Positions 2,803-15,370 of a stretch of DNA of 23,327 bases are shown in pieces. The DNA comes from Acutalibacter sp. Its GTDB lineage: Bacteria > Bacillota > Clostridia > Oscillospirales > Acutalibacteraceae. Under the pieces are notes generated by a model that saw only the letters and a program-made list of their open reading frames with translations, searched no databases and had not been told where the DNA came from. Position numbers and translations under genes: made by a program. The stretch spans positions 1-23,327 of the forward strand of contig JAAWSH010000001.1 of NCBI GenBank assembly GCA_022801475.1, written 5' to 3'. Position 1 is the stretch's first letter. Every line of letters begins with the position of its first letter.

Positions 2803-3864
2803 TTACGGCCTGGCTGTAGACTGTCTGGGAATATGGGTGCAGGGCAGCAAGATCCTGGGATCGTCCGCCTGCCGCCCTGCCATAAGGTCCAGCAGGATCT
2901 TGGCGCTGGCCCGCCCCATTTGGGCAAGGGGAAGATCAATGGTCGTTAGCGCGGGAATCACAAAGCCAGAGGCACTGTCATTGTCGAAACCATGCAGAGA
3001 AAGGTCCTGGGGTACCCGAACGCCCCGCTCATGGGCTGCTTTCATGGCGCCAAAGGCCATGGGGTCGTTCATGCAGAAAATGGCCGTAGGGGGCGCGGGC
3101 AGGTCCAGCAGCCTGCCGCACTGCTCGTATCCCATGTTAAACCCCCAGCTGCCTGTACAGACATAGGCTGGGTCAAAAACCAGGTCGTGTTCCATTAAGG
3201 ACTCGGTATAGGCCTGCATCCGCCGGTGGGTGGGAATAGAATTGATGGGCCCGGAGATCAGGGCAATCCGCTGGTGGCCTAGTCCAGCCAGGTAGTCCAC
3301 AGCCAGCTTGGCCCCCTGATAATCATCATAGTTTACAGTATAGCTGCCTCCGCTTTTGGTAAAGCAGTAGGCGTATACCACAGGAAAAGGCAGCTCTGGT
3401 AAAATCCCCTCTACGTCCCTGGGGTGCAGGCCCACATAGATCAGGCCGCTGACCCGAGAGGCCAGCAGGCTGGTAACACTGAGCTCCACAGAATGCCGGA
3501 ACTCTGGCAGGCGGACCAGTTTATCATACTCCACGTACTTTTGTAAAAGGGTCAGGTGTTCCAGCCGCAGGTTATATAGACTTAGGGCAAAGTCCTGGGC
3601 CTCGCACACAGCGGAGATTCCTTCTATAATCTGCCCGGTCATGAAGGCTCCGATGTCCTCCACAATAATCCCAATGGTGCTGGTCCGGCTGGTTTTTAGA
3701 TCCTTGGCCAGCGTGTTTGGGATATAATTCAGCTGCTTAATGGCAGCCCGCACCCGGGCCTCGGTTTTTGGTGCGGTGGTCCCCTTGCGGTTGATCACAT
3801 TGGACACCGTGGCCACAGAAACACCAGCCAGTGCAGCCACATCGTTGATGGTACTGATGGTCAA
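2803..3864 (-). CDS. LacI family repressor of the arabinofuranoside locus
   Basis: A 353-residue LacI/GalR regulator. Residues 5-50 form the helix-turn-helix and hinge (INDVAALAGVSVATVSNVIN), followed by a periplasmic-binding-protein-like sensor domain ending with the family pattern LSLHGFDND and TTIDLPLAQMG. It starts at TTG (3862-3864) with AAGGAGG 7 nt upstream; no ATG is available nearby. It is divergent from the ABC importer and glycosidase operon. Palindromic TGAAACGTTT-type sites in both control regions suggest that it represses that operon and itself. The inducer is probably a sugar released by the operon's enzymes, such as L-arabinose or an oligosaccharide; this is inferred from position. 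Confidence 0.92.
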   Translation of the reverse strand: MTISTINDVAALAGVSVATVSNVINRKGTTAPKTEARVRAAIKQLNYIPNTLAKDLKTSRTSTIGIIVEDIGAFMTGQIIEGISAVCEAQDFALSLYNLRLEHLTLLQKYVEYDKLVRLPEFRHSVELSVTSLLASRVSGLIYVGLHPRDVEGILPELPFPVVYAYCFTKSGGSYTVNYDDYQGAKLAVDYLAGLGHQRIALISGPINSIPTHRRMQAYTESLMEHDLVFDPAYVCTGSWGFNMGYEQCGRLLDLPAPPTAIFCMNDPMAFGAMKAAHERGVRVPQDLSLHGFDNDSASGFVIPALTTIDLPLAQMGRASAKILLDLMAGRQADDPRILLPCTHIPRQSTARP

Positions 3865-3956
3865 AGAACCACCTCCTTAGCAGATTTTTTATTGAAAAGC
3901 CGCTCTTTAATATCAGGAAAACAAGGGCACGCTCTATGGGGCGGATAAGCAGCTGA

Positions 3957-3968
3957 TGAAACGTTTCA
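3957..3968. promoter_or_regulatory. Perfect palindromic operator for the LacI-type repressor
   Basis: TGAAACGTTTCA is a perfect 12-bp palindrome with the central CG typical of LacI-family operators. It lies about 20-30 bp downstream of the predicted start of the repressor transcript, so it would give autorepression. A near-identical site lies 212 bp away at 4168-4181. Confidence 0.75.
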
Positions 3969-3995
3969 AATCCCAGAAAAGTTCATAATGGTGGT

Positions 3996-4103: not shown

Positions 4104-4132
4104 TTGACATCGTTTTTGCTCTATGATATTAT
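4104..4132 (+). promoter_or_regulatory. Main promoter of the arabinofuranoside utilization operon
   Basis: A consensus TTGACA (4104-4109) and TATTAT (4127-4132) are 17 bp apart. Transcription should start near 4139. Repressor half-sites and a full operator follow directly, which fits block-type repression of a strong promoter. Confidence 0.85.
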
Positions 4133-4146
4133 TATAACCAAAAAAG

Positions 4147-4181
4147 CGTGAAACTTTATCTAAAAACTTGAAACGTTTTAA
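4147..4181. promoter_or_regulatory. Operator region overlapping the operon start
   Basis: TTGAAACGTTTTAA (4168-4181) is a 14-bp palindrome with one mismatched pair and shares its core with the perfect site at 3957-3968. A half site, TGAAAC, occurs at 4149-4154. Both lie within about 40 bp of the predicted transcription start. The centres of the two full sites are 212 bp apart, close to 20 helical turns, which would allow looping. Confidence 0.7.
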
Positions 4182-4449
4182 TGACTATGCTACATCCTTG
4201 ACCTGTTTTGGAGAAAACATGTCCAAGCGGCCTAACGGTTCTGGGAAAAAGCTGGCAAAACCGGCGAAAAACTCCTGGAGGGCAGGAAAGAGTTTCTCAC
4301 AAAAGAGCGGCTCTTCACAAAACAAATTAAAACGATTCAAGTTTTGGACCAGAAAATTCCCCCGGGCCTTTGGCCGGACTGGCCAAAAAACCCTTGCCGG
4401 AAACCCCGGGAGAGGGTTCTGGAAAAATCTGCAAAAGGAGGAACGGACT
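4182..4449 (+). other. Long 5' leader of the operon
   Basis: About 310 nt separate the predicted transcription start from the first permease start codon. I recognise no known riboswitch or leader peptide. Weak hairpins are visible, for example TTTGGCC/GGCCAAA around 4370-4388. The permease reading frame stays open throughout, and an in-frame ATG at 4219 has GGAGA just upstream, so a 77-residue lysine-rich N-terminal extension is possible though not favoured. Confidence 0.4.
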
Positions 4450-5382
4450 ATGGCGGAAAAATCGCCAAGCCAAAAGGGTAGGCTGTTCAAAAGGTTCGTA
4501 CGAGAGCGCGAGCTCTGGTTTTGGAGCGTTCTGTGCATTGTGTGGTGGGTGGTGTTCTTCCTCATCCCCCTATACGGCATTGTGTATGCGTTTTTCGACT
4601 ATGTACCGGGCCGGGACATCTCTTGGGACCGGTTTGTAGGGCTAAAGCATTTCGCCGCTTTCTTCCAGGGCAAAGACGCGGGCACCATCATCCGAAACAC
4701 CTTGGTTATCGGCGGACTGAACACCACAGTAGGCTTTGTTGCCCCCATTGTGCTGGCCCTGCTCTTTGACGAACTGCGCAGCTCTAAGCTAAAGCGTGTG
4801 ACCCAGACCATCTCTTACCTGCCCTATTTTGTGTCCTGGGTGGTGGTGGCCAGCATCCTGACCGCCACACTTAGCAGTGAGGGCGTGGTAAACGAGGTGC
4901 TGATGAGCTTGGGCCTTTTGGAAAAGCCCATCCTGTTTTTGCAAGAGGGCAAGTACTTCTGGGGCATGATTACCATTGTGAACATCTGGAAAAACATTGG
5001 CTACAGCACCATTTTATACATGTCCGCCATCGCGGGCATTGACCAGGAACTATATGAGGCCGGCGCTGTGGATGGCCTGGGCCGCTGGGGCATGGTAAAG
5101 CATATCACCCTGCCCAGTATCCTGCCCACCATTGTGCTGCTGTTCATTTTGGGCATTGGCGGAATTTTGAACATTGGCTACGAGCAGCACCTGCTCATTG
5201 GCCAGCCCACCACCCGGGAATACTGGGATATTATCGACACCTACGTGTACCGCTTCGGCGTACAGATGGGGCGGCATTCTTTTGCCATTGCCGTGGGGCT
5301 GATGAAGTCTGTGATTGGCCTCACCCTGGTGTTTGTCACCAACTGGATCTCAAAAAAGACCATGAGCATGTCTATATTTTAA
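4450..5382 (+). CDS. ABC sugar importer permease, LplB type
   Basis: A 310-residue inner-membrane permease of the binding-protein-dependent type with about six hydrophobic segments, the first at about residues 24-48. The EAA loop that docks the ATPase is clear at about 202-222 (YEAGAVDGLGRWGMVKHITL). Members of this LplB/YteP group move oligosaccharides. The start at 4450 follows AAAGGAGG with good spacing. The next gene starts 21 bp after its stop. No ATPase gene is in the operon, as is common for this type, which shares an MsmX-like ATPase encoded elsewhere. Substrate is inferred from the downstream glycosidases to be an arabinofuranose-containing oligosaccharide or glycoconjugate. Confidence 0.9.
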   Translation: MAEKSPSQKGRLFKRFVRERELWFWSVLCIVWWVVFFLIPLYGIVYAFFDYVPGRDISWDRFVGLKHFAAFFQGKDAGTIIRNTLVIGGLNTTVGFVAPIVLALLFDELRSSKLKRVTQTISYLPYFVSWVVVASILTATLSSEGVVNEVLMSLGLLEKPILFLQEGKYFWGMITIVNIWKNIGYSTILYMSAIAGIDQELYEAGAVDGLGRWGMVKHITLPSILPTIVLLFILGIGGILNIGYEQHLLIGQPTTREYWDIIDTYVYRFGVQMGRHSFAIAVGLMKSVIGLTLVFVTNWISKKTMSMSIF

Positions 5383-5403: not shown

Positions 5404-6372
5404 ATGCGTTTCAGCAAATCCAGTAAGTCCAGCCATGCCAATACCCACTCGGCCGCCAACGGGCGGCTGCGGCTGGCAAAAAAGACTGTTTCCAGCCAAG
5501 TTTTCGACGTGGTAAACGTGATTATTATGATCCTGCTGATTTTTGTGATGATCTACCCTTTCTGGAACCAGCTGATTGTCTCGCTAAATGACGGTATTGA
5601 TACCCAGCGGGGCGGTCTGTACTTCTTCCCCCGGATGTTCACTCTCAATAACTATGACTACATTTTGAAGTCCGAGGGCCTGGGCTCTGCGGTGATGTGG
5701 TCTCTGCTGCGGGTTTTTGTGGGCACCATTACCCACCTAATATGCAGCGGGTTTTTAGCCTATATTACTACCGTAAAGTTCTTCTCCTTCCACCGGCCTC
5801 TACGCACCATGTTCCTTATCACAATGTACATATCCGGGGGCATGATTCCCATTTACCTGTGGTATACCAAGATTGGCCTTTTAGAGACTTTCACGGTCTA
5901 TTGGCTGCCAGGGCTTATTGGGGCCTATGATATGATGCTGATTGCCTCCTACATTGAGGGACTGCCCGACGCAGTGACCGAGTCGGCCCGGATTGACGGA
6001 GCCCGAGAGGTAACGATCTTCTTCCGGGTAGTGGCGCCCCTGTGCGTGCCCGTGTTTGCCGCTTTGGCAGTGATGACCGCTGTGGGCCACTGGAACTCCT
6101 GGTTTGACACCATGCTGTACAACTCTTCCGGCAAATATGACACCCTGCAAATGCTTTTGCGAGACATCCTCATAGAGTCTGACAAGATTAAAAAGCTGAT
6201 GCAGGACGCCACAGTGGGCGCAGACGCTGTAAAGAGCCAGGTGTCCCGCATTTCCACGCAGTCCATGCGGGCGGCCACCACCATGATTGTAACCATTCCC
6301 ATTGTGTGCGTGTACCCCTTCTTCCAGCGGTACTTTGTAAAGGGTATTTCCATTGGCGCGGTAAAGGGATAA
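5404..6372 (+). CDS. ABC sugar importer permease, LplC/YtcP type
   Basis: A 322-residue partner permease. After a basic, serine-rich N terminus the first membrane segment lies at about residues 35-60, and the EAA loop at about 192-213 (ESARIDGAREVTIFFRVVAP). A polar stretch at about 250-285 precedes the last membrane segment, and the protein ends with the typical KGISIGAVKG tail of this group. AAAGGAGG lies about 8 nt before the ATG. It forms the translocation pore with the LplB-type protein encoded immediately upstream. Family assignment is firm. Confidence 0.9.
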   Translation: MRFSKSSKSSHANTHSAANGRLRLAKKTVSSQVFDVVNVIIMILLIFVMIYPFWNQLIVSLNDGIDTQRGGLYFFPRMFTLNNYDYILKSEGLGSAVMWSLLRVFVGTITHLICSGFLAYITTVKFFSFHRPLRTMFLITMYISGGMIPIYLWYTKIGLLETFTVYWLPGLIGAYDMMLIASYIEGLPDAVTESARIDGAREVTIFFRVVAPLCVPVFAALAVMTAVGHWNSWFDTMLYNSSGKYDTLQMLLRDILIESDKIKKLMQDATVGADAVKSQVSRISTQSMRAATTMIVTIPIVCVYPFFQRYFVKGISIGAVKG

Positions 6373-6623: not shown

Positions 6624-6656
6624 AACATCACAAAAACAGAAAGGATGAACCAAATT

Positions 6657-8498
6657 ATGAGCAAGACAAAACGCATTCTCGCCCTGGTACTGGCCCTGGC
6701 GCTGGTTCTGGCTTTGGCGGCCTGCGGCGGAGACAGCGGCTCTTCGAGCTCCACACCGGAGTCCTCCAAGACGGATGCTTCCTCCGCTTCCTCCAGCTCT
6801 ACAGAGAGCGGCGGCGATTCCGCCCCCACTGGCGAGACCAACAAGTACGGCTGGGAAGTGCCCGCCGAGACCCTGAAGTTCTCTTACTTTTATGCGGACG
6901 ACGGCACCATGGCCCAGGACGAAGAGGACGAGCGCCTGGCCGAGACCGCCCAGGTGCTGAAGGATGAGTTCAATGTGGAGATTGAGCGCATTGTCTACAA
7001 GCAGGACCCCACCGAGCGCCTGAACCTGATGCTGGCTGGCAACGACTACCCGGACGTGATCTCCGGCATGCCGGACGCTATGGCCGAAACCTTCATCGAC
7101 CAGGGCCGTGCCCAGCAGCTGGACGACCTTCTGGACCAGTACGGCCAGAATATTGTGAGCGGCTATGGCAAGTACCTGAACCTAATGCGGGACGACGAGG
7201 GTAAGATCTTTAAGCTGGCCCACTCTTGGGGCCACACCACTGACGGCATGGGCCGTGACTTTGCGGTGCGCTGGGACTGGCAGCAGGAGACTGGCCTGCC
7301 CCTGTACGACAGCTTTGACAGCTACTATGAGACCATCAAGAAGATCGTGGAAAACCACCCCACCAATGACGCGGGCGAAAAGGTCTATGGCTTTACAGCT
7401 TTCTCTGAGAAGGGCGAGGAGTTCTATAAGACTCCTCTGGCCTACCTGGGCTTGTTCGGCGTCAGCGGCGGTGTAAACACCAGCGGCGGTTCCATTACCC
7501 ACTATTACAAGCTGAACGACGACGGGAGCATTGCCTACTGGGTGGACACCGAAGAGGGGCTGCGGGTGGCAAAATATATCAACCAGTTCTGGCGTGACGG
7601 CCTCATTGACCCCGACTTCCAGACCAAAGACTACGACGCCTCTGTGGCCTTTATGTCCAACGAGCGCGTGGCCGGCAACATTGGCACCTGGTGGCACAAC
7701 CACGTGGGCGGCCACCAGATCTGGATGTCCACCGAGGACGACTGGACCATTGAGAAGCGCATGCAGTGCGTGACCTTCCAAGAAGGCGACGCCACCCCTG
7801 CCCTGATTTCCGACAACTTTATCCGCACCACCCGCTGCATCATTACCGACAAGTGCCAGAACCCTGAAAACGTGATGAAGTACTGGAACTGGGAGGTCAC
7901 TCCCCTGGGCCTGGCCTTTGTTACCATGGGTCCCGAGGGCGAAGAGCGGGCCTGGAGCATTGACGAAAACGGAGACGCCAAGTTCAGCGACCTGTACTGG
8001 TACGGCAAAGAGGGCGACGATACCTTCCTGTGGGACAGCTGGGAAGAGGACATGGGCAGCTTTAACTACTGGATGATGGCCCCGGGCTATACCCCCGAGG
8101 ACAAGATGGACAACCCCGGCGAGGGCTGGGCCGATCCTGTGGTAAAGATTAACGCATGGGACCCCATTGGCGACTTCAGCCAGCTGGATCAAGACAAGCT
8201 GGCCCCTGGCAACAAGGTTATGCAGTCCCACTATGAGACCTCTACCCCTTATCTGTGGGATCAGACCCTGTGGACCCTAAGCTTCTCCCCGGACGACCCC
8301 GAGCAGCTGATCAACCAGGACGTGGCGGACTGCATTTCCAGCGCCTGGGTGCAGGTTGTTATGGCCAACACCGAGGAAGAGTGCGTAGAGCTCTTTGAAA
8401 AGATGAAGAACGACCTGCACGCTATGGGTCTAGACGACCTGGTGGCGTTCCAGCAGGCAGCCCTGGATAAGAACAGGGCCAAGATGGAAGGCAACTAA
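6657..8498 (+). CDS. Lipoprotein solute-binding protein of the sugar importer
   Basis: A 613-residue extracellular binding protein of the large LplA-like class that pairs with LplB/LplC permeases. Residues 1-22 are a lipoprotein signal peptide with basic KTKR, a leucine/alanine core and the lipobox LAAC, so Cys23 would be lipidated. A serine-rich linker follows to about residue 55, then the binding domain, rich in tryptophan and acidic residues as expected for a sugar-binding surface. The ATG at 6657 is preferred because the upstream ATG at 6645 overlaps the AAAGGA site. It is separated from the permease gene by 284 bp of hairpin-rich DNA and from the GH127 gene by another hairpin, a layout that could give it its own expression level. 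Confidence 0.92.
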   Translation: MSKTKRILALVLALALVLALAACGGDSGSSSSTPESSKTDASSASSSSTESGGDSAPTGETNKYGWEVPAETLKFSYFYADDGTMAQDEEDERLAETAQVLKDEFNVEIERIVYKQDPTERLNLMLAGNDYPDVISGMPDAMAETFIDQGRAQQLDDLLDQYGQNIVSGYGKYLNLMRDDEGKIFKLAHSWGHTTDGMGRDFAVRWDWQQETGLPLYDSFDSYYETIKKIVENHPTNDAGEKVYGFTAFSEKGEEFYKTPLAYLGLFGVSGGVNTSGGSITHYYKLNDDGSIAYWVDTEEGLRVAKYINQFWRDGLIDPDFQTKDYDASVAFMSNERVAGNIGTWWHNHVGGHQIWMSTEDDWTIEKRMQCVTFQEGDATPALISDNFIRTTRCIITDKCQNPENVMKYWNWEVTPLGLAFVTMGPEGEERAWSIDENGDAKFSDLYWYGKEGDDTFLWDSWEEDMGSFNYWMMAPGYTPEDKMDNPGEGWADPVVKINAWDPIGDFSQLDQDKLAPGNKVMQSHYETSTPYLWDQTLWTLSFSPDDPEQLINQDVADCISSAWVQVVMANTEEECVELFEKMKNDLHAMGLDDLVAFQQAALDKNRAKMEGN

Positions 8499-8531
8499 GT
8501 TAACACCATTTTCATTTGTCTTATAGCTGGT

Positions 8532-8570
8532 GGCCAGCCCGCGTCTCCTTTTTGGCGGCGCGGGCTGGCC
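8532..8570 (+). terminator. Strong stem-loop after the binding-protein gene
   Basis: GGCCAGCCCGCG and CGCGGGCTGGCC form a perfect 12-bp stem around a 15-nt loop, 33 nt after the stop codon. No T-run follows, so it is more likely an mRNA 3'-end stabiliser or a partial terminator than a full stop. The glycosidase genes downstream show no clear promoter of their own. Confidence 0.5.
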
Positions 8571-8677
8571 GCTTAATAAGAAGAAATATAGCCTCTCTGT
8601 GAGGCCCCACTCCCTTGCCCCCAAAGCGCTTGGGCGGATTCATCTTAAGAAAATTTTTACCCAGAAAGGAGATCATC

Positions 8678-10588
8678 ATGCCTTACCAAGACATCAACCT
8701 GAAAAACATCAAAGTAGACGACGGCTTCTGGAACAAACGCATCCGCAACGCAGTAGAAAACGTGGTGCCCTACCAGTGGCGGGTCCTTAACGACCAAGAG
8801 CCCGGCGCCGCCCCCAGCCACGCGGTGATGAACTTTAAAATTGCCGCTGGAATGGAAGAGGGGGAGTTCTCCGGTTATCAGTTCCAAGACAGCGACCTGG
8901 CCAAGTGGATGGAGGCCGCGTCCTTTAGCTTGATCTACCATGATTCTGCGAAAGTCCGGGCCGCCCTGGAAGAGGCGATTGACATTATTGAAAAAGCCCA
9001 GCAGTCCGATGGCTACCTGGACACCCACTATATTCTGGCAAAACCAGACAAAAAGTGGCGGGAGATTGCCCATGGCCACGAACTGTATTGCTCGGGCCAT
9101 ATGCTGGAGGCCGCCGTGGCCTACTATACCGTTACTGGCAGCGACCGGCTACTGAAGGTGATGGAGAAAAATGTACGGCTTATCCGCCAGGTGTTTGGCA
9201 AGGGAGAGGGACAGATCGACTCCTACCCGGGCCACGAGGAACTGGAGCTGGCCCTGATGAAGGCCTACCGGGCCACCGGGGAGCCGGTCTATTTTGACCT
9301 TGCCCAGTACTTTGTGGAAAATCGAGGCGAAAAGCCCGGATTTATGGAAGAGGACCGCTTTTTAGAGCTCAGCGGCAAGGACCGCTGGCTGGGCCCCGAC
9401 TATCACCAGGCCCATGCCAAAATTCGGGACCAGAAGGCCGCCGAGGGCCACGCGGTGCGGGCCATGTACTTCTTCACCGGGGCGGCGGACGTAGCCCTGG
9501 AGACCGGCGACCCCACCCTAAAGGCGGCCCTGGAGGACCTGTGGCGCAATGTGACAGGCCGACGGATGTACATTACCGGAGGCGTGGGGTCTCAAGGAGA
9601 CGGAGAGCGCTTTACCATTGACTACGACCTGCCTAATGACACCTGCTACACCGAGACCTGCGCGGCCATTGGCCTGGCCATGTGGGCCCTGCGGATGCTG
9701 CGCCTGGAGCCAGATTCCCGCTACGCGGACGTGATGGAGCGGGCCCTGTACAATAATGTTCTTAGCGGCATCTCCGAGGATGGGGAGCATTACTTCTACG
9801 TGAATCCCCTACAGCTGAAGCCGGACGTGGCCAAGTACCGCCGGGACCACGAGTCTGTGGAGCCGGAACGGGTAAAATGGTTTGGCTGCGCCTGCTGCCC
9901 GCCCAACGTAATCCGTACTCTGTGCGGCCTGGGGGGCTATGTATATACCCAGCAGGGGAATGCCATCTACCAGCACCTGTATGTGGGCCACAGTGCGGAG
10001 ATGGAGACAGATAAGGGCACGGTCCGGCTTTGCTGCCAGTCCTCCATGCCCTGGCAGGGCGCGGCCTCCATTACCTACTACGGGCCAGAGGGGGTCACCC
10101 TATATCTGCGGGTGCCGGAGTATGCCAAAAACTTTACCGTATCCCAGAGCGGCACGGTCCTGAACCTTAACATTGAAAAGGGCTACGCAAGACTAGAGCC
10201 AAAGGACGGATGCACCTACCAGGTGAGCTTTGCCATGGAGGCCCAGTTTGTCCAGGCCAACCCCCGGGTTACCGAGGATTGCGGCAAGGCCGCGGTGCTG
10301 CGGGGGCCCCTGGTATATTGTGCGGAAGAGGCGGACAACGGTCCCCTGCTGAACAGCTTTACAGTGGATATGGGTACAGCTCCCGCAGCGGAAGAGAGCC
10401 CGCTCTTTGGGGACATTACCCTGCTGAAGATAAAGGGCACCCGCCCCGACCCGGACCAGTGGCCGGAGGACCAACTGTATAGCCCGGCCCCCAGCGCCCG
10501 GGTAAATGCAGAGCTGAAGCTAATTCCCTACTTCCTATGGAACAATCGGGGCCTGGGGGAAATGTTGGTGTGGATAAACGCCCGATAG
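8678..10588 (+). CDS. GH127 beta-L-arabinofuranosidase
   Basis: A 636-residue enzyme of family GH127, which removes beta-L-arabinofuranose from short arabino-oligosaccharides, including those on plant hydroxyproline. There is no signal peptide, so it acts in the cytoplasm on imported substrate. The family's zinc and thiolate active site is visible: E326 and C328 (in CYTETCAA) and C406-C407 (in CACCPPN) correspond to Glu338, Cys340, Cys417 (nucleophile) and Cys418 of the characterised HypBA1, and E310 matches its Glu322. The start at 8678 follows AAAGGAG; the upstream ATG at 8615 has no such site. It lies between the importer and GH31 genes. Family is firm; exact substrate is inferred. Confidence 0.93.
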   Translation: MPYQDINLKNIKVDDGFWNKRIRNAVENVVPYQWRVLNDQEPGAAPSHAVMNFKIAAGMEEGEFSGYQFQDSDLAKWMEAASFSLIYHDSAKVRAALEEAIDIIEKAQQSDGYLDTHYILAKPDKKWREIAHGHELYCSGHMLEAAVAYYTVTGSDRLLKVMEKNVRLIRQVFGKGEGQIDSYPGHEELELALMKAYRATGEPVYFDLAQYFVENRGEKPGFMEEDRFLELSGKDRWLGPDYHQAHAKIRDQKAAEGHAVRAMYFFTGAADVALETGDPTLKAALEDLWRNVTGRRMYITGGVGSQGDGERFTIDYDLPNDTCYTETCAAIGLAMWALRMLRLEPDSRYADVMERALYNNVLSGISEDGEHYFYVNPLQLKPDVAKYRRDHESVEPERVKWFGCACCPPNVIRTLCGLGGYVYTQQGNAIYQHLYVGHSAEMETDKGTVRLCCQSSMPWQGAASITYYGPEGVTLYLRVPEYAKNFTVSQSGTVLNLNIEKGYARLEPKDGCTYQVSFAMEAQFVQANPRVTEDCGKAAVLRGPLVYCAEEADNGPLLNSFTVDMGTAPAAEESPLFGDITLLKIKGTRPDPDQWPEDQLYSPAPSARVNAELKLIPYFLWNNRGLGEMLVWINAR

Positions 10589-10894
10589 AGAAGGCGGCAA
10601 AAAAAGATAATATAGCCGCCAGATAAAACATCCACACCCGTGTCGGGCCTGCCCCAAGAGGGGCCTTATCAGCCCAAAAATCATGTTCACGTATTTGGGC
10701 CGGTCAAGGCTCTTGCTTGGGGAGTTCTGATGGTGGCGGGTACTGAAGGGGGCTTTTTCTGGCAAGTGCCCTTCCCTGTCATGCGCTTTTAGGGGACAGA
10801 ACGAGGCCGCGGGGCTCTGTCTCCCCTAACGCCCTTTCACGACGCAGTGTATTCATCTTTTGTTTCTATTCTATATTTTAAAGGAGTTCCTTCT
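10589..10894 (+). other. Intergenic stretch with several stem-loops
   Basis: No gene or convincing promoter is seen between the two glycosidase genes. It contains several possible stems: GGCGGC/GCCGCC near 10593-10620, GCCCAAAAAT/ATTTGGGC near 10672-10700, and an imperfect AGGGGACAGA stem at about 10791-10829. These may be RNA processing or stability signals inside the operon. The longer gap between GH127 and GH31 leaves room for an internal promoter that I could not identify. Confidence 0.35.
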
Positions 10895-12919
10895 ATGCAA
10901 CGCTTTTTTAAGGAAAACGGCGCCCTGGTCTGGCGGGGCAATGGCGAGACTCTGGTTCTGGAGCCCTGGGGGCCAGACAGCCTTCGGCTGCGCTCCCGGA
11001 TGATGGGAGATATTTTGGACGATGATTTTGCCCTGCTGCCCAATCCCCCCGCCCATGGCCCAGTTCAAATTGAGGTGGAGGACCAGCGGGCCAGCATCAC
11101 CAACGGCAAAATTCGCGCCGAGCTGGACTATGACCCCTGGTTCCGAAACTGCCGGGTTCACTACTATAATCAAGAGGGCAAACTTCTGCTGGAAGAGGCC
11201 TTTAACTATGGTGGCCTGAAGAAGTACGCCCGGGAGTTTACCCCCCTGCCTGGGGGCGACTACCGGCTGACCCTGAACTTCGAGGCCCCGGAGGACGAGA
11301 AGCTCTTCGGCATGGGCCAGTATCAGCAGGAATATTTGGATCTGAAGTACAGCGTGGTGGAGATGTCCCAGCGGAACACCCAGGTGAGCGTGCCCTTTCT
11401 GCTCTCCAGCCGGGGCTACGGCTTTTTGTGGCACAACCCCGCTGTGGGTAAGGCCACCTTTGCCAAAAACTTTACCCAGTGGCAGGCCGACGCCAGCCGT
11501 CAGGCGGACTACTGGATTACCGCTGGGGACAGCCCCGCCGAAATCATTACCCGGTACGCCTCGGTAACGGGTACCGCCCCCATGATGCCCGAATACGGCC
11601 TGGGCTTTTGGCAGTGCCGCCTGCGGTACTGGAACCAGGAACAGCTGCTGGAGGTGGCCCGGGAGTACAAACGCCGGGGCCTGCCCCTGGACGTGATTGT
11701 GGTGGACTTCTTCCACTGGCCCAAAATGGGGGACTTCCGCTTTGACCCGGAGTTCTTCCCCGACCCCAAAGCCATGGTGGATGAGCTGAAGGAAATGGGC
11801 GTGGAGCTGATGGTTTCTGTGTGGCCGCAGATTGCCCTGACCAGCGAGAACTATGAGGAAATGCGCCAGCAGGGCCTGCTGGTGCGTGCCGAACGGGGCA
11901 ATCAGGTGACCATGCAGTGGCCGGAGGACAGCACCTTTTACGACGCCACCAACCCCCGGGCCCGGGCCTATGTGTGGGAGAAGTGCAAGAAGAACTACTA
12001 CGACTACGGCATCCGCGTTTTCTGGCTGGACGAGGCGGAGCCCGAGTACGGGGTGTGCGATTTTGACAACTACCGCTATCACCTGGGCAACGCCTCCCGG
12101 GTGAGCAATATCTACCCCCAGCTGTATGCCCGGGGCTTTTACGAGGGCATGGAGCAGGCGGGGCAGAAGAACATTGTCAACCTGATTCGCTGCGCCTGGG
12201 CGGGCAGCCAGCGGTATGGGGCCCTGGTGTGGTCCGGGGACATTGACAGCACCTGGGTGGACTTCCGGCGGCAGATCTGCGCGGGCCTGAACATCTCCCT
12301 GGCGGGCATCCCCTGGTGGACCACGGACATTGGCGGCTTTTCCGGCGGCGACCCTAAAGACCCAGCTTTCCAAGAGCTGCTGGTGCGGTGGTTTCAGTTT
12401 GGCGCCTTCTGCCCGGTAATGCGCCTGCACGGCGACCGGGTCCCCTCCAAGATGATCTACAATAAGGCTGGGAACAAGGTGATGCACGCCGGGGCCGACA
12501 ATGAGATATGGAGCTTTGGTGAAGAAAACTATCAGATTTTACGGAAGTACGTGCTCTTCCGGGAGACCATGCGGCCCTATGTGCGCCAGCTGATGCAGGA
12601 GGCCCATGAGACCGGCGCGCCGGTGATGCGGGCCATGTTCTACCAGTTCCCGGAGGACGCTAAGTGCTGGGAGCTGACAGACCAGTACTGCTTTGGCCCG
12701 GATGTGCTGGTAGCCCCGGTAACCCAGCCGGGAGCCACAGAGCGAACCGTGTACCTGCCCGCCGGGTGCGGGTGGACCAGCCTGCACGACGGGACCCGCT
12801 ATGAAGGCGGCCAAACCGTGACCGCCAGCGCCCCCCTGGAGGTGATTCCCGTGTTCCTGCGGGAAGGAACCCACCAGGAGTGGATAAAGGCCCTTGACTC
12901 CTTCCCCGTTTTCCATTAA
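10895..12919 (+). CDS. GH31 alpha-glycosidase (alpha-xylosidase-like)
   Basis: A 674-residue cytoplasmic family GH31 enzyme. The retaining catalytic pair is readable: D379 in FWLDEAEPE as nucleophile and D449 in WSGDIDSTW as acid/base, followed by the sugar-pocket motif WWTTDIGGF and the MRLHGDR segment. An N-terminal beta-sandwich (about 1-230) precedes the barrel and a C-terminal beta region follows from about 575. The DEAEPE form of the nucleophile motif resembles alpha-xylosidase-type members, but GH31 also holds alpha-glucosidases and alpha-galactosidases, so the sugar is not settled. The start at 10895 follows AAAGGAG. The next gene begins 37 bp after the stop. Confidence 0.9.
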   Translation: MQRFFKENGALVWRGNGETLVLEPWGPDSLRLRSRMMGDILDDDFALLPNPPAHGPVQIEVEDQRASITNGKIRAELDYDPWFRNCRVHYYNQEGKLLLEEAFNYGGLKKYAREFTPLPGGDYRLTLNFEAPEDEKLFGMGQYQQEYLDLKYSVVEMSQRNTQVSVPFLLSSRGYGFLWHNPAVGKATFAKNFTQWQADASRQADYWITAGDSPAEIITRYASVTGTAPMMPEYGLGFWQCRLRYWNQEQLLEVAREYKRRGLPLDVIVVDFFHWPKMGDFRFDPEFFPDPKAMVDELKEMGVELMVSVWPQIALTSENYEEMRQQGLLVRAERGNQVTMQWPEDSTFYDATNPRARAYVWEKCKKNYYDYGIRVFWLDEAEPEYGVCDFDNYRYHLGNASRVSNIYPQLYARGFYEGMEQAGQKNIVNLIRCAWAGSQRYGALVWSGDIDSTWVDFRRQICAGLNISLAGIPWWTTDIGGFSGGDPKDPAFQELLVRWFQFGAFCPVMRLHGDRVPSKMIYNKAGNKVMHAGADNEIWSFGEENYQILRKYVLFRETMRPYVRQLMQEAHETGAPVMRAMFYQFPEDAKCWELTDQYCFGPDVLVAPVTQPGATERTVYLPAGCGWTSLHDGTRYEGGQTVTASAPLEVIPVFLREGTHQEWIKALDSFPVFH

Positions 12920-12956
12920 TATAAAACCGACATATCTTGACAGGAGGCACTTTCTC

Positions 12957-14216
12957 ATGAACAAAGATTTCTACGCCGGTAACCGCCGGCGTCTATACGA
13001 ACAGATGAAGCCGGGCTCCCTGCTGGTCCTTTTCTCCGGCATGGAGGTCCGCAAGACCAACGACGAGTTTTACCCCTTCTACACCAACCGCAACTTCCTC
13101 TACCTTACCAACCTGGACCAAAAGGAGTCCGCCCTAATTGCCCAAAAGGACAGTGCCGGCCAGGTGACGGAAAAGGTCTATCTGCTGCCCCCGGACCTGA
13201 TGGCCGAGCGCTGGACTGGGGAACGCATTAAGCCGGACCAGGCGGCGGAGCTCTCTGGCATAGAGAGCATCGGCCTGGTGGGTGAGTTCCAGGCCGAGCT
13301 GCACCGGCTGGCTGCCAGCGGGCGCTTTCAGCACTTATACCTGGACCTGTACCGGGCCTCTCCCTCTGACCGAGATGAGCCCGCCCACCTGCTGCTGGGG
13401 CGGGTGCACAGCGACTACCCCTACCTAAAGGTGGAGAACGCCAACGCCCTGATCCGCCGGCTGCGCACTATTAAACAGCCCTGCGAAATCGCGGCCCTGC
13501 GAAAGGCGGAAGAGATTACTTCAGCGGGTATCACCGCCATGATGCGGGCCTCGAAGCCCGGCATGTACGAGTACCAGTACAAGGCTGTGTTTGACTATGC
13601 CCTGGGCCAATATGGGCCCCAGGGGCCAGGGTTCCCCTCTATTATCTCCGCGGGGAAAAACAATTTCTGCATTCACTACTACGCCTACCAGGGCCAGGCC
13701 CTGGACGGGGACATGGTCCTCAATGACGTAGGCGCTTGGTATGACCATATGATCACTGACGTTTCCAGGGGCTGGCCCTGCAACGGCAAGTTTAACGACC
13801 GCCAGAGGCAGCTTTATGAGATGGCCCTGGAGACCTCGGACCACATGTTTGGCATCATCAAACCGGGCATGAAAATGGCCGATGTAGACGGTGAATCCCA
13901 CCGGTATTGCGCCCAGCTGATGAAAGACGCGGGACTTTTGGACAACGTGAAAAATGTCGGCCGGTACATGTGGCACGGCGGGGCCCACCACGTGGGCTTT
14001 GACGTCCACGACGTGGTGGAGACCCCAGAGGTGATTGGCCCGGGCATGGTGTTCTGCGTGGACATCGGCATCTATCATGAGGATCTGGGCATTGGCTTTA
14101 GGCTGGAGGACAACTGCCTGGTCACCGAGACGGGCTGCGAGAACCTTTCGGCCTGCACGCCCCGGACCATAGAGGCCATTGAGGACACCATGCGCCAGAA
14201 TTTCGTGGCGTTTTAA
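12957..14216 (+). CDS. M24 family metallopeptidase, Xaa-Pro aminopeptidase type
   Basis: A 419-residue protein with the aminopeptidase P layout: an N-terminal creatinase-like domain (about 1-160, including ERWTGER) and a C-terminal pita-bread domain. Such enzymes release an N-terminal residue that precedes proline, using two metal ions. Four of the five expected metal ligands are present: D257, D268, H344 (GGAHHVGFDVHD) and E384 (FRLEDNCLVTE). The fifth, normally glutamate in an EPG motif, is aspartate here (D369 in VDIGIY). It follows CAGGAGG and lies inside the glycosidase operon, suggesting that the imported substrate contains peptide. The alternative is a general peptidase or an M24 homologue with altered activity. 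Confidence 0.88.
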   Translation: MNKDFYAGNRRRLYEQMKPGSLLVLFSGMEVRKTNDEFYPFYTNRNFLYLTNLDQKESALIAQKDSAGQVTEKVYLLPPDLMAERWTGERIKPDQAAELSGIESIGLVGEFQAELHRLAASGRFQHLYLDLYRASPSDRDEPAHLLLGRVHSDYPYLKVENANALIRRLRTIKQPCEIAALRKAEEITSAGITAMMRASKPGMYEYQYKAVFDYALGQYGPQGPGFPSIISAGKNNFCIHYYAYQGQALDGDMVLNDVGAWYDHMITDVSRGWPCNGKFNDRQRQLYEMALETSDHMFGIIKPGMKMADVDGESHRYCAQLMKDAGLLDNVKNVGRYMWHGGAHHVGFDVHDVVETPEVIGPGMVFCVDIGIYHEDLGIGFRLEDNCLVTETGCENLSACTPRTIEAIEDTMRQNFVAF

Positions 14217-14232
14217 GCATGGAGAGCGGGGA

Positions 14233-15306
14233 ATGAATGAGGTACTGATGATCGTGATGGCCGTGGGCGCGGTGCTGGGGGGCGTCGACCGGCTGCGGGG
14301 CAACAAATGGGGCTTTGGCGACAAGTTTGAGACCGGCTTTATGCTGCTGGGCTCTATGGCCCTGTCTATGGCTGGGATGATCTGCCTGGCCCCGGTGCTG
14401 GCCAACTGGCTGGGCCGGGTCATTGTGCCCTTGTACCAGCTAATGGGCGTGGACCCGGGCATGTTCGGCAGTGTGCTGGCCATTGATATGGGCGGCTACC
14501 AGCTCTCCAAAGAGCTGGCCCGAGACCCGCAGATTGGCAGCTATGCGGGGCTGGTGGTTGCGGCCATTTTCGGCTGTACCCTGGTGTTTACCGTGCCGGT
14601 GGGCATGGGTCTGATCCAGCGGGAGGACCGGCCTTTTTTTGCCCAGGGTGTTATGCTGGGTCTAGCGGCCATGCCGGTGGGCCTGGCTGTGGGCGGGCTG
14701 CTCTGCGGCCTGACTTTGCTGGAATGCCTGTGGCAGAACCTGCCGGTGTTCCTTTTGGCAGTCCTGCTGTTTATTGGCCTGCGGCTGGTTCCGGACAAGA
14801 TGGTGAAGGGCTTCTGCCTCTTGTCCGAGGGCATTCGCTGGCTGGTGACTATTGGCCTGGTGCTGGCCGCCGTGGAGTCCATGACTGGCTGGAACCCCAT
14901 TCCGGGCATGACCCCTATTGCCGAGGCCATGGGCACCGTTGCCTCCATCGGCGTGGTGCTGTTGGGCAGCCTGCCTATGGCGGAGTTAATTCGCCGCCTG
15001 CTGGTGCGGCCCTTTGCCTGGCTGGGGGACAGGCTGGGCATGAAGCCCCAAAGCCTGACGGGCATGCTGGTGGGCCTGGTCAGCGCCCTGCCCACGCTCT
15101 CGATGTACAAAGATATGGACAGCCGGGGCAAGGTGGCGGCAGGGGCCTTTTTGGTCAGCGGTACCAGTCTTTTGGCCGCGCACATGGCATTTGTGGTTAG
15201 CACCGAGCCCCCCATGCTTTTAGCCGTGCTGGCCGCCAAGCTGGCCGGGGCCCTGGCCGCCGTTGCGCTGGCCCTGACCTCTCGAAAAAAGGAGGCGGGG
15301 GCGTGA
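14233..15306 (+). CDS. eutH: EutH family membrane protein
   Basis: A 357-residue multi-span membrane protein of the EutH family, the ethanolamine permease of ethanolamine utilization operons. Family features include GAVDRLRGN followed by WGFGDKFETGF near the start and the segment LAIDMGGYQLSKELA at about residues 80-95; roughly ten hydrophobic segments follow. It starts 16 bp after the peptidase gene, with GGAG upstream, and is the last gene before the operon terminator. No other ethanolamine gene (ammonia-lyase, microcompartment shell or regulator) is in the window, so it is an orphan inside a sugar locus. It may carry ethanolamine, or a different small amine or amino acid released by the operon's enzymes. 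Family is fairly sure, substrate is not. Confidence 0.85.
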   Translation: MNEVLMIVMAVGAVLGGVDRLRGNKWGFGDKFETGFMLLGSMALSMAGMICLAPVLANWLGRVIVPLYQLMGVDPGMFGSVLAIDMGGYQLSKELARDPQIGSYAGLVVAAIFGCTLVFTVPVGMGLIQREDRPFFAQGVMLGLAAMPVGLAVGGLLCGLTLLECLWQNLPVFLLAVLLFIGLRLVPDKMVKGFCLLSEGIRWLVTIGLVLAAVESMTGWNPIPGMTPIAEAMGTVASIGVVLLGSLPMAELIRRLLVRPFAWLGDRLGMKPQSLTGMLVGLVSALPTLSMYKDMDSRGKVAAGAFLVSGTSLLAAHMAFVVSTEPPMLLAVLAAKLAGALAAVALALTSRKKEAGA

Positions 15307-15327: not shown

Positions 15328-15370
15328 AAAAACGCCGGGCCTCTAAAGCGGGAGTTCCGGCGTTTTTTAT
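15328..15370 (+). terminator. Rho-independent terminator of the operon
   Basis: AAAACGCCGG and CCGGCGTTTT form a stem that runs straight into a TTTTTT tract, 21 nt after the eutH stop codon. It closes the operon that starts near 4139. Confidence 0.92.

Follow-up and report, generated by a model that had tools for sequence, protein, structure and literature searches.

The question raised by this locus is whether a sugar-uptake operon of Acutalibacter sp. that ends in a peptidase gene acts on a plant polysaccharide or on plant glycoprotein. The operon lies in a stretch of 23,327 nucleotides, the whole of which was analysed and is called the window below (contig C255 of genome G000). It encodes an ATP-binding cassette (ABC) importer with its solute-binding protein (SBP), two glycoside hydrolases of families GH127 and GH31, an M24 metallopeptidase and a EutH-family membrane protein. 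The original prediction was that short arabinosylated, proline-rich glycopeptides are taken up, and that both sugar and peptide are stripped in the cytoplasm. Our analysis leaves it close to an even call that the operon imports and trims plant glycans or small glycopeptides with terminal β-L-arabinofuranose (β-L-Araf)/α-D-xylose (α-D-Xyl), the source most likely being a hydroxyproline-rich glycoprotein, with the M24-EutH pair serving the peptide side.

Results and Discussion

The genes of the operon are the following:

4450..5382, + strand, LplB-type sugar ABC permease (Pfam BPD_transp_1, 9e-19)
5404..6372, + strand, LplC-type sugar ABC permease (BPD_transp_1, 3e-4, under the Pfam cut-off)
6645..8498, + strand, solute-binding lipoprotein (SBP; lipobox LAAC, by eye)
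8678..10588, + strand, GH127 of β-L-arabinofuranosidase type, predicted cytoplasmic (PF07944, 5.5e-104)
10895..12919 (start as read), + strand, GH31 of α-xylosidase type, predicted cytoplasmic (PF01055, 1.2e-89)
12957..14216, + strand, M24 metallopeptidase of aminopeptidase P type with an AMP_N domain (PF05195 and PF00557)
14233..15306, + strand, EutH-family membrane protein of an M24-linked clade (PF04346, 3.1e-126, 422 bits; tree)

Open reading frames and Pfam matches agree that the importer, GH127, GH31, M24 and EutH genes are present as claimed. All seven genes lie on the + strand, with successive gaps of 21, 272, 179, 306, 37 and 16 nucleotides from LplB to EutH. The LplB start is taken as the ATG after AGGAGG (4450), while the searches were run from 4456. 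The claim that the enzymes have no signal peptides also stands, as judged by eye from the N-termini of GH127, GH31 and M24. Genome G005, which is 99% complete (G000 is 64% complete), has the identical gene order, with proteins 97–100% identical.

Concerning the importer, NCBIfam sugar permease models match LplC under their cut-offs, and an LplC partner of at least 53% identity is found in seven of seven related loci. The SBP gave no match in the Pfam scan and weakly matches AlgQ2-type oligosaccharide SBPs (2e-9).

The sugar hydrolases

The catalytic, middle and C-terminal domains of GH127 (PF07944, PF20736 and PF20737) are all found over cut-off. The best matching structures are 4qjy (618 bits), presumably a Geobacillus-type GH127, and HypBA1 (481 bits). 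In the alignment, the window protein is identical to HypBA1 at H142, Y145, H194 and R273, at the Cys3-Glu zinc site, at the Cys nucleophile and at the acid/base Glu; for the last three we take the HypBA1 numbers to be E322, E338, C340, C415, C417 and C418. The four binding residues and the Cys3-Glu site are those named for HypBA1 in PMC10850190. The compared catalytic, zinc and sugar-binding residues are thus all kept, which bears out the assignment to the HypBA1 type. Both His and the Arg are also present in 6ex6, and those residues alone are therefore no proof of arabinose specificity. Judged from the sequence, specificity for β-L-arabinofuranose is nevertheless likely. An assignment as aceric acid hydrolase was discarded, with NF049879 giving 430 bits against a curated cut-off of 950. 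A second GH127, 43% identical, is encoded elsewhere in the same genome (G000:C264:11365-13122).

For GH31, the match to MeXyl31 (PDB 5zn6, deposited as an α-xylosidase) reaches 849 bits and covers residues 2-659 of 674, that is, nearly the full length. The protein is under the cut-off of the NCBI equivalog α-xylosidase model PRK10658 (252 vs 606 bits). It had been suggested that this enzyme might be an α-galactosidase acting on the galactose units of extensins, and this part has to be given up: among the best 60 of 69 matches, the α-galactosidase 8j53 gives 123 bits and the others listed at most 123, against 849 for MeXyl31.

The M24-EutH pair

The M24 protein is closest to Xaa-Pro aminopeptidases (3ig4, 253 bits; 1a16, 198 bits). 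If the metal ligands of M24B aminopeptidase P are D, D, H, E and E, as we assume, four of the five are kept in the alignment (D257, D268, H344 and E384), and the fourth in order is D369, which is Glu in 1a16 and 3ig4. Asp is found at this position in 80 of 80 related loci, and the exchange would be a conservative one.

The EutH protein belongs to the same family, PF04346, as the EutH of eut operons. It falls under the cut-offs of the NCBI EutH models (360 vs 482, 322 vs 387, 233 vs 574 and 176 vs 575 bits), and it differs from eut EutH by its M24 neighbour and by its place in the tree, where all M24-linked proteins are on one side of a branch with support 100/99 (44 rows, 32 of them picked via M24). 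A role in ethanolamine catabolism was rejected, with EutB (E up to 1e-30) found in none of the 12 genomes with an M24-adjacent EutH and in 5 of 148 relatives. The M24-linked EutH may thus not be an ethanolamine carrier, and its annotation name may be wrong.

Of the 148 relatives, 24 have EutH. In 12 genomes, namely G059 and 11 members of the window's genus, M24 is directly adjacent to it, at 70–100% identity; for the other 12, flanking sequence of up to 1.5 kb was fetched and contained no M24. Scanning contigs with an M24 alignment gave at least 516 relatives, of which the best 80 were kept (L104-L183). EutH is in the locus in 41 of these 80, always within about 140 nucleotides 3' of M24, and it is missing from 39, for 32 of which the sequence runs on for 1.2 kb or more downstream. 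M24-EutH, seen in the window, in L086-L095 and in these 41 loci, is a widespread Clostridial gene pair.

Some further neighbourhoods of the pair can be mentioned here. In four genus members (L087, L089, L090 and L092), one protein family is found directly upstream of M24-EutH; in L087, this protein contains a GH5 domain together with S-layer homology domains. Two other M24 genes of this clade have sugar hydrolases nearby, namely an adjoining GH127 that carries an aBig_2 domain (L172:1537-3582) and, not far from M24, a GH36 α-galactosidase with permease-like genes (L175:392-4450).

Linkage of M24 to the operon

From the 80 loci, 50 M24-selected genomes were taken, seven of the loci being in relatives already sampled and the others being dropped to limit the sample size. 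Among 80 genomes, LplC of the operon clade (E up to 1e-85) was found in eight (G000, G005, G008, G551, G553, G558, G571 and G727) at 56–100% identity, G551 having one further copy at 46%. In G551, G553 and G558 the gene order is SBP, LplB, LplC, DUF5695, M24, followed by EutH in G553 and G558, and in G571 it is LplB-LplC-SBP-DUF5695-GH127-M24. That is, four of the 50 M24-selected genomes bear the transporter, and in all four M24 is directly behind the enzyme genes, as in the window. At least four gains or losses of the link are needed to account for the distribution of the six operon-linked rows over the M24 tree. GH127-like matches some 4 kb from M24 in L135, L140 and L143 were excluded from the linkage count. 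Our early reading that M24-EutH is unrelated to the operon was abandoned, as the wider M24 sample, with its complete linkage and repeated gains or losses, spoke against it.

The DUF5695 gene (PF18951) of the sister operons encodes a PL27-like protein. By profile and fold, the proteins of L096, L131, L133, L138, L166, L196 and L197 are relatives of PL27, and 1131 homologues were found. The gene occurs in four of the 50 M24-selected genomes, in the same gene run as M24 in each of them; in the open-access literature DUF5695 is named in one paper only, on fungal regulators. In G008, moreover, HypD and ProC genes are located upstream of the orthologous operon. Taken together, the recurrence of M24, the HypD/ProC genes of G008 and the PL27-like sister genes point to hydroxyproline-rich glycoproteins.

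Glycyl radical enzymes were also seen elsewhere: the GH127 orthologues of G006, G002 and G001 (L098:11107-13521, L100:6176-8590 and L101:13106-15511) lie about 2 kb from one. These enzymes are of PFL2-3 type and under the HypD cut-off, and were not counted as support for hydroxyproline use.

Putative control of the operon

The regulator, the control sites and the hairpins are the following:

2803..3864, − strand, LacI-family regulator (Pfam LacI and Peripla_BP_3), divergent from the operon
3956..3969, no strand assigned, palindromic operator-like site of LacI type
4104..4132, + strand, promoter-like site TTGACA-17-TATTAT (11 of 12 consensus positions; TG before the second hexamer)
4168..4181, no strand assigned, palindromic operator-like site of LacI type, immediately 3' of the promoter-like site
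4327..4340, no strand assigned, weaker palindromic operator-like site (1-2 mismatches)
about 8529..8573, + strand, strong intercistronic hairpin without a U run, in the SBP/GH127 gap (ends from dot-bracket)
about 15328..15367, + strand, intrinsic-terminator-like hairpin 3' of EutH (12 + 4 stem pairs, 3' arm running into GUUUUUUAUUAU)

The LacI regulator has a 97% identical copy in G005 and homologues of 36-46% identity in the related loci L196, L198 and L201. The stretch contains nine promoter-like sites (5.3 expected), the one at 4104-4132 being the best, and it is surrounded by the three palindromes at 3956, 4168 and 4327, which are of the kind TTGAAACGTTTYAA (six strand matches vs 0.16 expected). 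At the other end of the operon, the fold of the terminator-like hairpin is equalled by 8 of 200 shuffled sequences. The suggestion of one promoter and one terminator fits these predicted ends, with the reservation that a very strong hairpin lies inside the operon at 8529-8573 (fold of 8495-8610, −55.1 kcal mol−1, z −6.8). Judging from the fold, this hairpin may lead to uneven expression along the operon.

Proposed mechanism and points against it

In the mechanism that we favour, the LacI regulator would control the operon, and LplB, LplC and the SBP would take up plant cell-wall oligosaccharides or small glycopeptides, with the ATPase presumably supplied from elsewhere. In the cytoplasm, GH127 would remove terminal β-L-arabinofuranose and GH31 would remove α-D-xylose. 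The source would most likely be a hydroxyproline-rich glycoprotein of the arabinogalactan-protein (AGP)/extensin class. M24-EutH would be an independent conserved module that has been joined to the 3' end of the operon, with M24 as an aminopeptidase-P-like hydrolase and EutH as a transporter for some small amine or imino acid, and it would deal with the peptide or amino acids of that nutrient source. What the sequences show is the gene content and its conservation, the active-site residues, the repeated linkage of M24 and the PL27-like and HypD neighbours in relatives. We infer the substrates, the co-transcription, the entry of peptide through this importer and the cargo of EutH.

It is important to point out that a number of observations weigh against this mechanism. 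The pair is found behind GH127/GH31 only in G000 and G005 out of 11 pair-bearing genus members; in eight of the 11 it lies among unrelated genes, and in G006 the contig ends 163 nucleotides upstream of M24, with GH127 on another contig. M24 relatives also adjoin many unrelated genes, and G551 holds a second, unlinked M24 (L183). The GH127 orthologues of G001, G002, G006 and G011 have neither such a transporter nor M24 within the 16-20 kb fetched. Of the three DUF5695 loci that were not picked via M24 (G008, G727 and G267), none has M24 in the operon; G008 has an M24 of 55% identity about 6 kb from the operon, apparently as a separate transcript. A class-level sample of 391 genomes has M24 in 14 and DUF5695 in four, and the three genomes with both have them on different contigs, the DUF5695 frames of this sample being longer (1361-1601 amino acids). 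Because of the difference between these results and the linkage in the M24-selected genomes, M24 is a recurrent partner of the operon and not a fixed part of it. The predicted co-occurrence in relatives is therefore kept only in part: G005 preserves the order, while the G008 operon lacks the pair.

The case for hydroxyproline is weakened in a similar way. HypD is not above cut-off in G000 (64% complete), G005 (99% complete) or any genus member with M24-EutH (the best glycyl radical enzyme has about 238 bits in G000 and G005, against a cut-off of 1100), and it occurs in only three of the 50 M24-selected genomes; M24-EutH is therefore no general partner of HypD. Both G553 and G727 have HypD apart from the operon. 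The hyp genes of G008 look like a transcript separate from its lpl genes, with a terminator-like hairpin and a TTGACA site in between. The PL27-like gene is absent from the window. In addition, the importer looks suited to sugars, its SBP resembling oligosaccharide binders, and α-xylose, which to our knowledge is not a known sugar of extensins, suits xyloglucan better. In view of the missing and scarce HypD, the α-xylose, the sugar-type importer and the fact that the mechanism is proposed from sequence, we set the glycoprotein reading at about one half and xyloglucan at about one quarter. The original prediction is supported in part, by the HypBA1-type GH127 and the recurrent M24 and by the HypD/ProC and PL27-like genes of relatives.

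Alternative explanations

The T chain of solanaceous xyloglucan consists of β-L-Araf on α-L-Araf on α-D-Xyl. One known side chain would thus suit both enzymes, with GH127 and then GH31 acting on an arabinosylated xyloglucan and M24-EutH being a bystander with an amino-acid role. We regard this as somewhat unlikely. The α-xylosidase type of GH31, the oligosaccharide type of the SBP and the location of M24-EutH mostly elsewhere within the genus are in line with it, but neither an α-L-arabinofuranosidase nor a β-glucosidase is encoded in the operon, to which this search was confined, and the PL27-like and HypD/ProC neighbours of related operons, like the repeated M24 linkage, argue against it. 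The case where only the glycan of AGPs is used, that is, where side-chain fragments of type II arabinogalactan are taken in without peptide and M24-EutH acts on unrelated dipeptides or amides, is consistent with the PL27 fold in the sister operons, with the sugar-type importer and with the terminal β-1,3-Araf of AGPs described in PMC10850190. It is unlikely, since it accounts neither for HypD/ProC next to the G008 operon nor for the repeated linkage of M24, and the window itself has no PL27-like gene.

We have also considered that M24-EutH landed behind a sugar operon by chance in the ancestor of G000 and G005, with no functional link. The many unrelated neighbourhoods of the pair, its presence at this place in only two of 11 genus members and the absence of M24 from the three DUF5695 loci found without it would fit such an insertion. 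However, the linkage in four of four transporter-bearing genomes of the 50, the gains or losses on the M24 tree and the 37-nucleotide gap between GH31 and M24, which lie in the same direction, make it very improbable.

Finally, the glycoprotein reading can be extended to an undescribed Clostridial system for hydroxyproline-rich glycoproteins, which we consider rather unlikely in this complete form. It would comprise a dedicated importer clade, the PL27-like DUF5695 protein, GH127, GH31, an Asp-ligand variant of aminopeptidase P that frees hydroxyproline or proline from deglycosylated peptides, a EutH-clade carrier for the freed imino acid instead of ethanolamine and, in some strains, HypD/ProC for reducing the hydroxyproline; the window would be a form in which M24-EutH replaces HypD/ProC.

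Comparison with known systems

The closest known arrangement is the HypBA1/HypBA2 cluster (GH127 and GH121) of Bifidobacterium longum, which, according to PMC7263609 and PMC10850190, shares a HypBA1-type GH127 beside a sugar ABC importer. The window operon adds GH31, M24 and EutH, and the sister loci add the PL27-like and HypD/ProC genes; among the nine proteins of the operon and its flanks that were scanned with Pfam, none was named as GH121, and no search for it was made elsewhere in the genome. The sister-operon DUF5695 proteins, at about 15% sequence identity, would be only distant relatives of the PL27 L-rhamnose-α-1,4-D-glucuronate lyases (BACCELL_00875, PDB 5no8). The hydroxyproline reduction by HypD/ProC of Clostridia is represented upstream of the G008 operon. 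In searches of the open-access literature, subscription papers not being covered, no listed title or abstract opening describes such a Clostridial operon.

Conclusion

Hydroxyproline-rich glycoproteins make up a large and little-studied share of the dietary plant cell wall. If the favoured mechanism is true, an operon family in which β-arabinosidases are combined with a PL27-like protein and with hydroxyproline reduction would constitute a testable route for their breakdown, and would also suggest where to look for the function of DUF5695 and of the M24-EutH pair.

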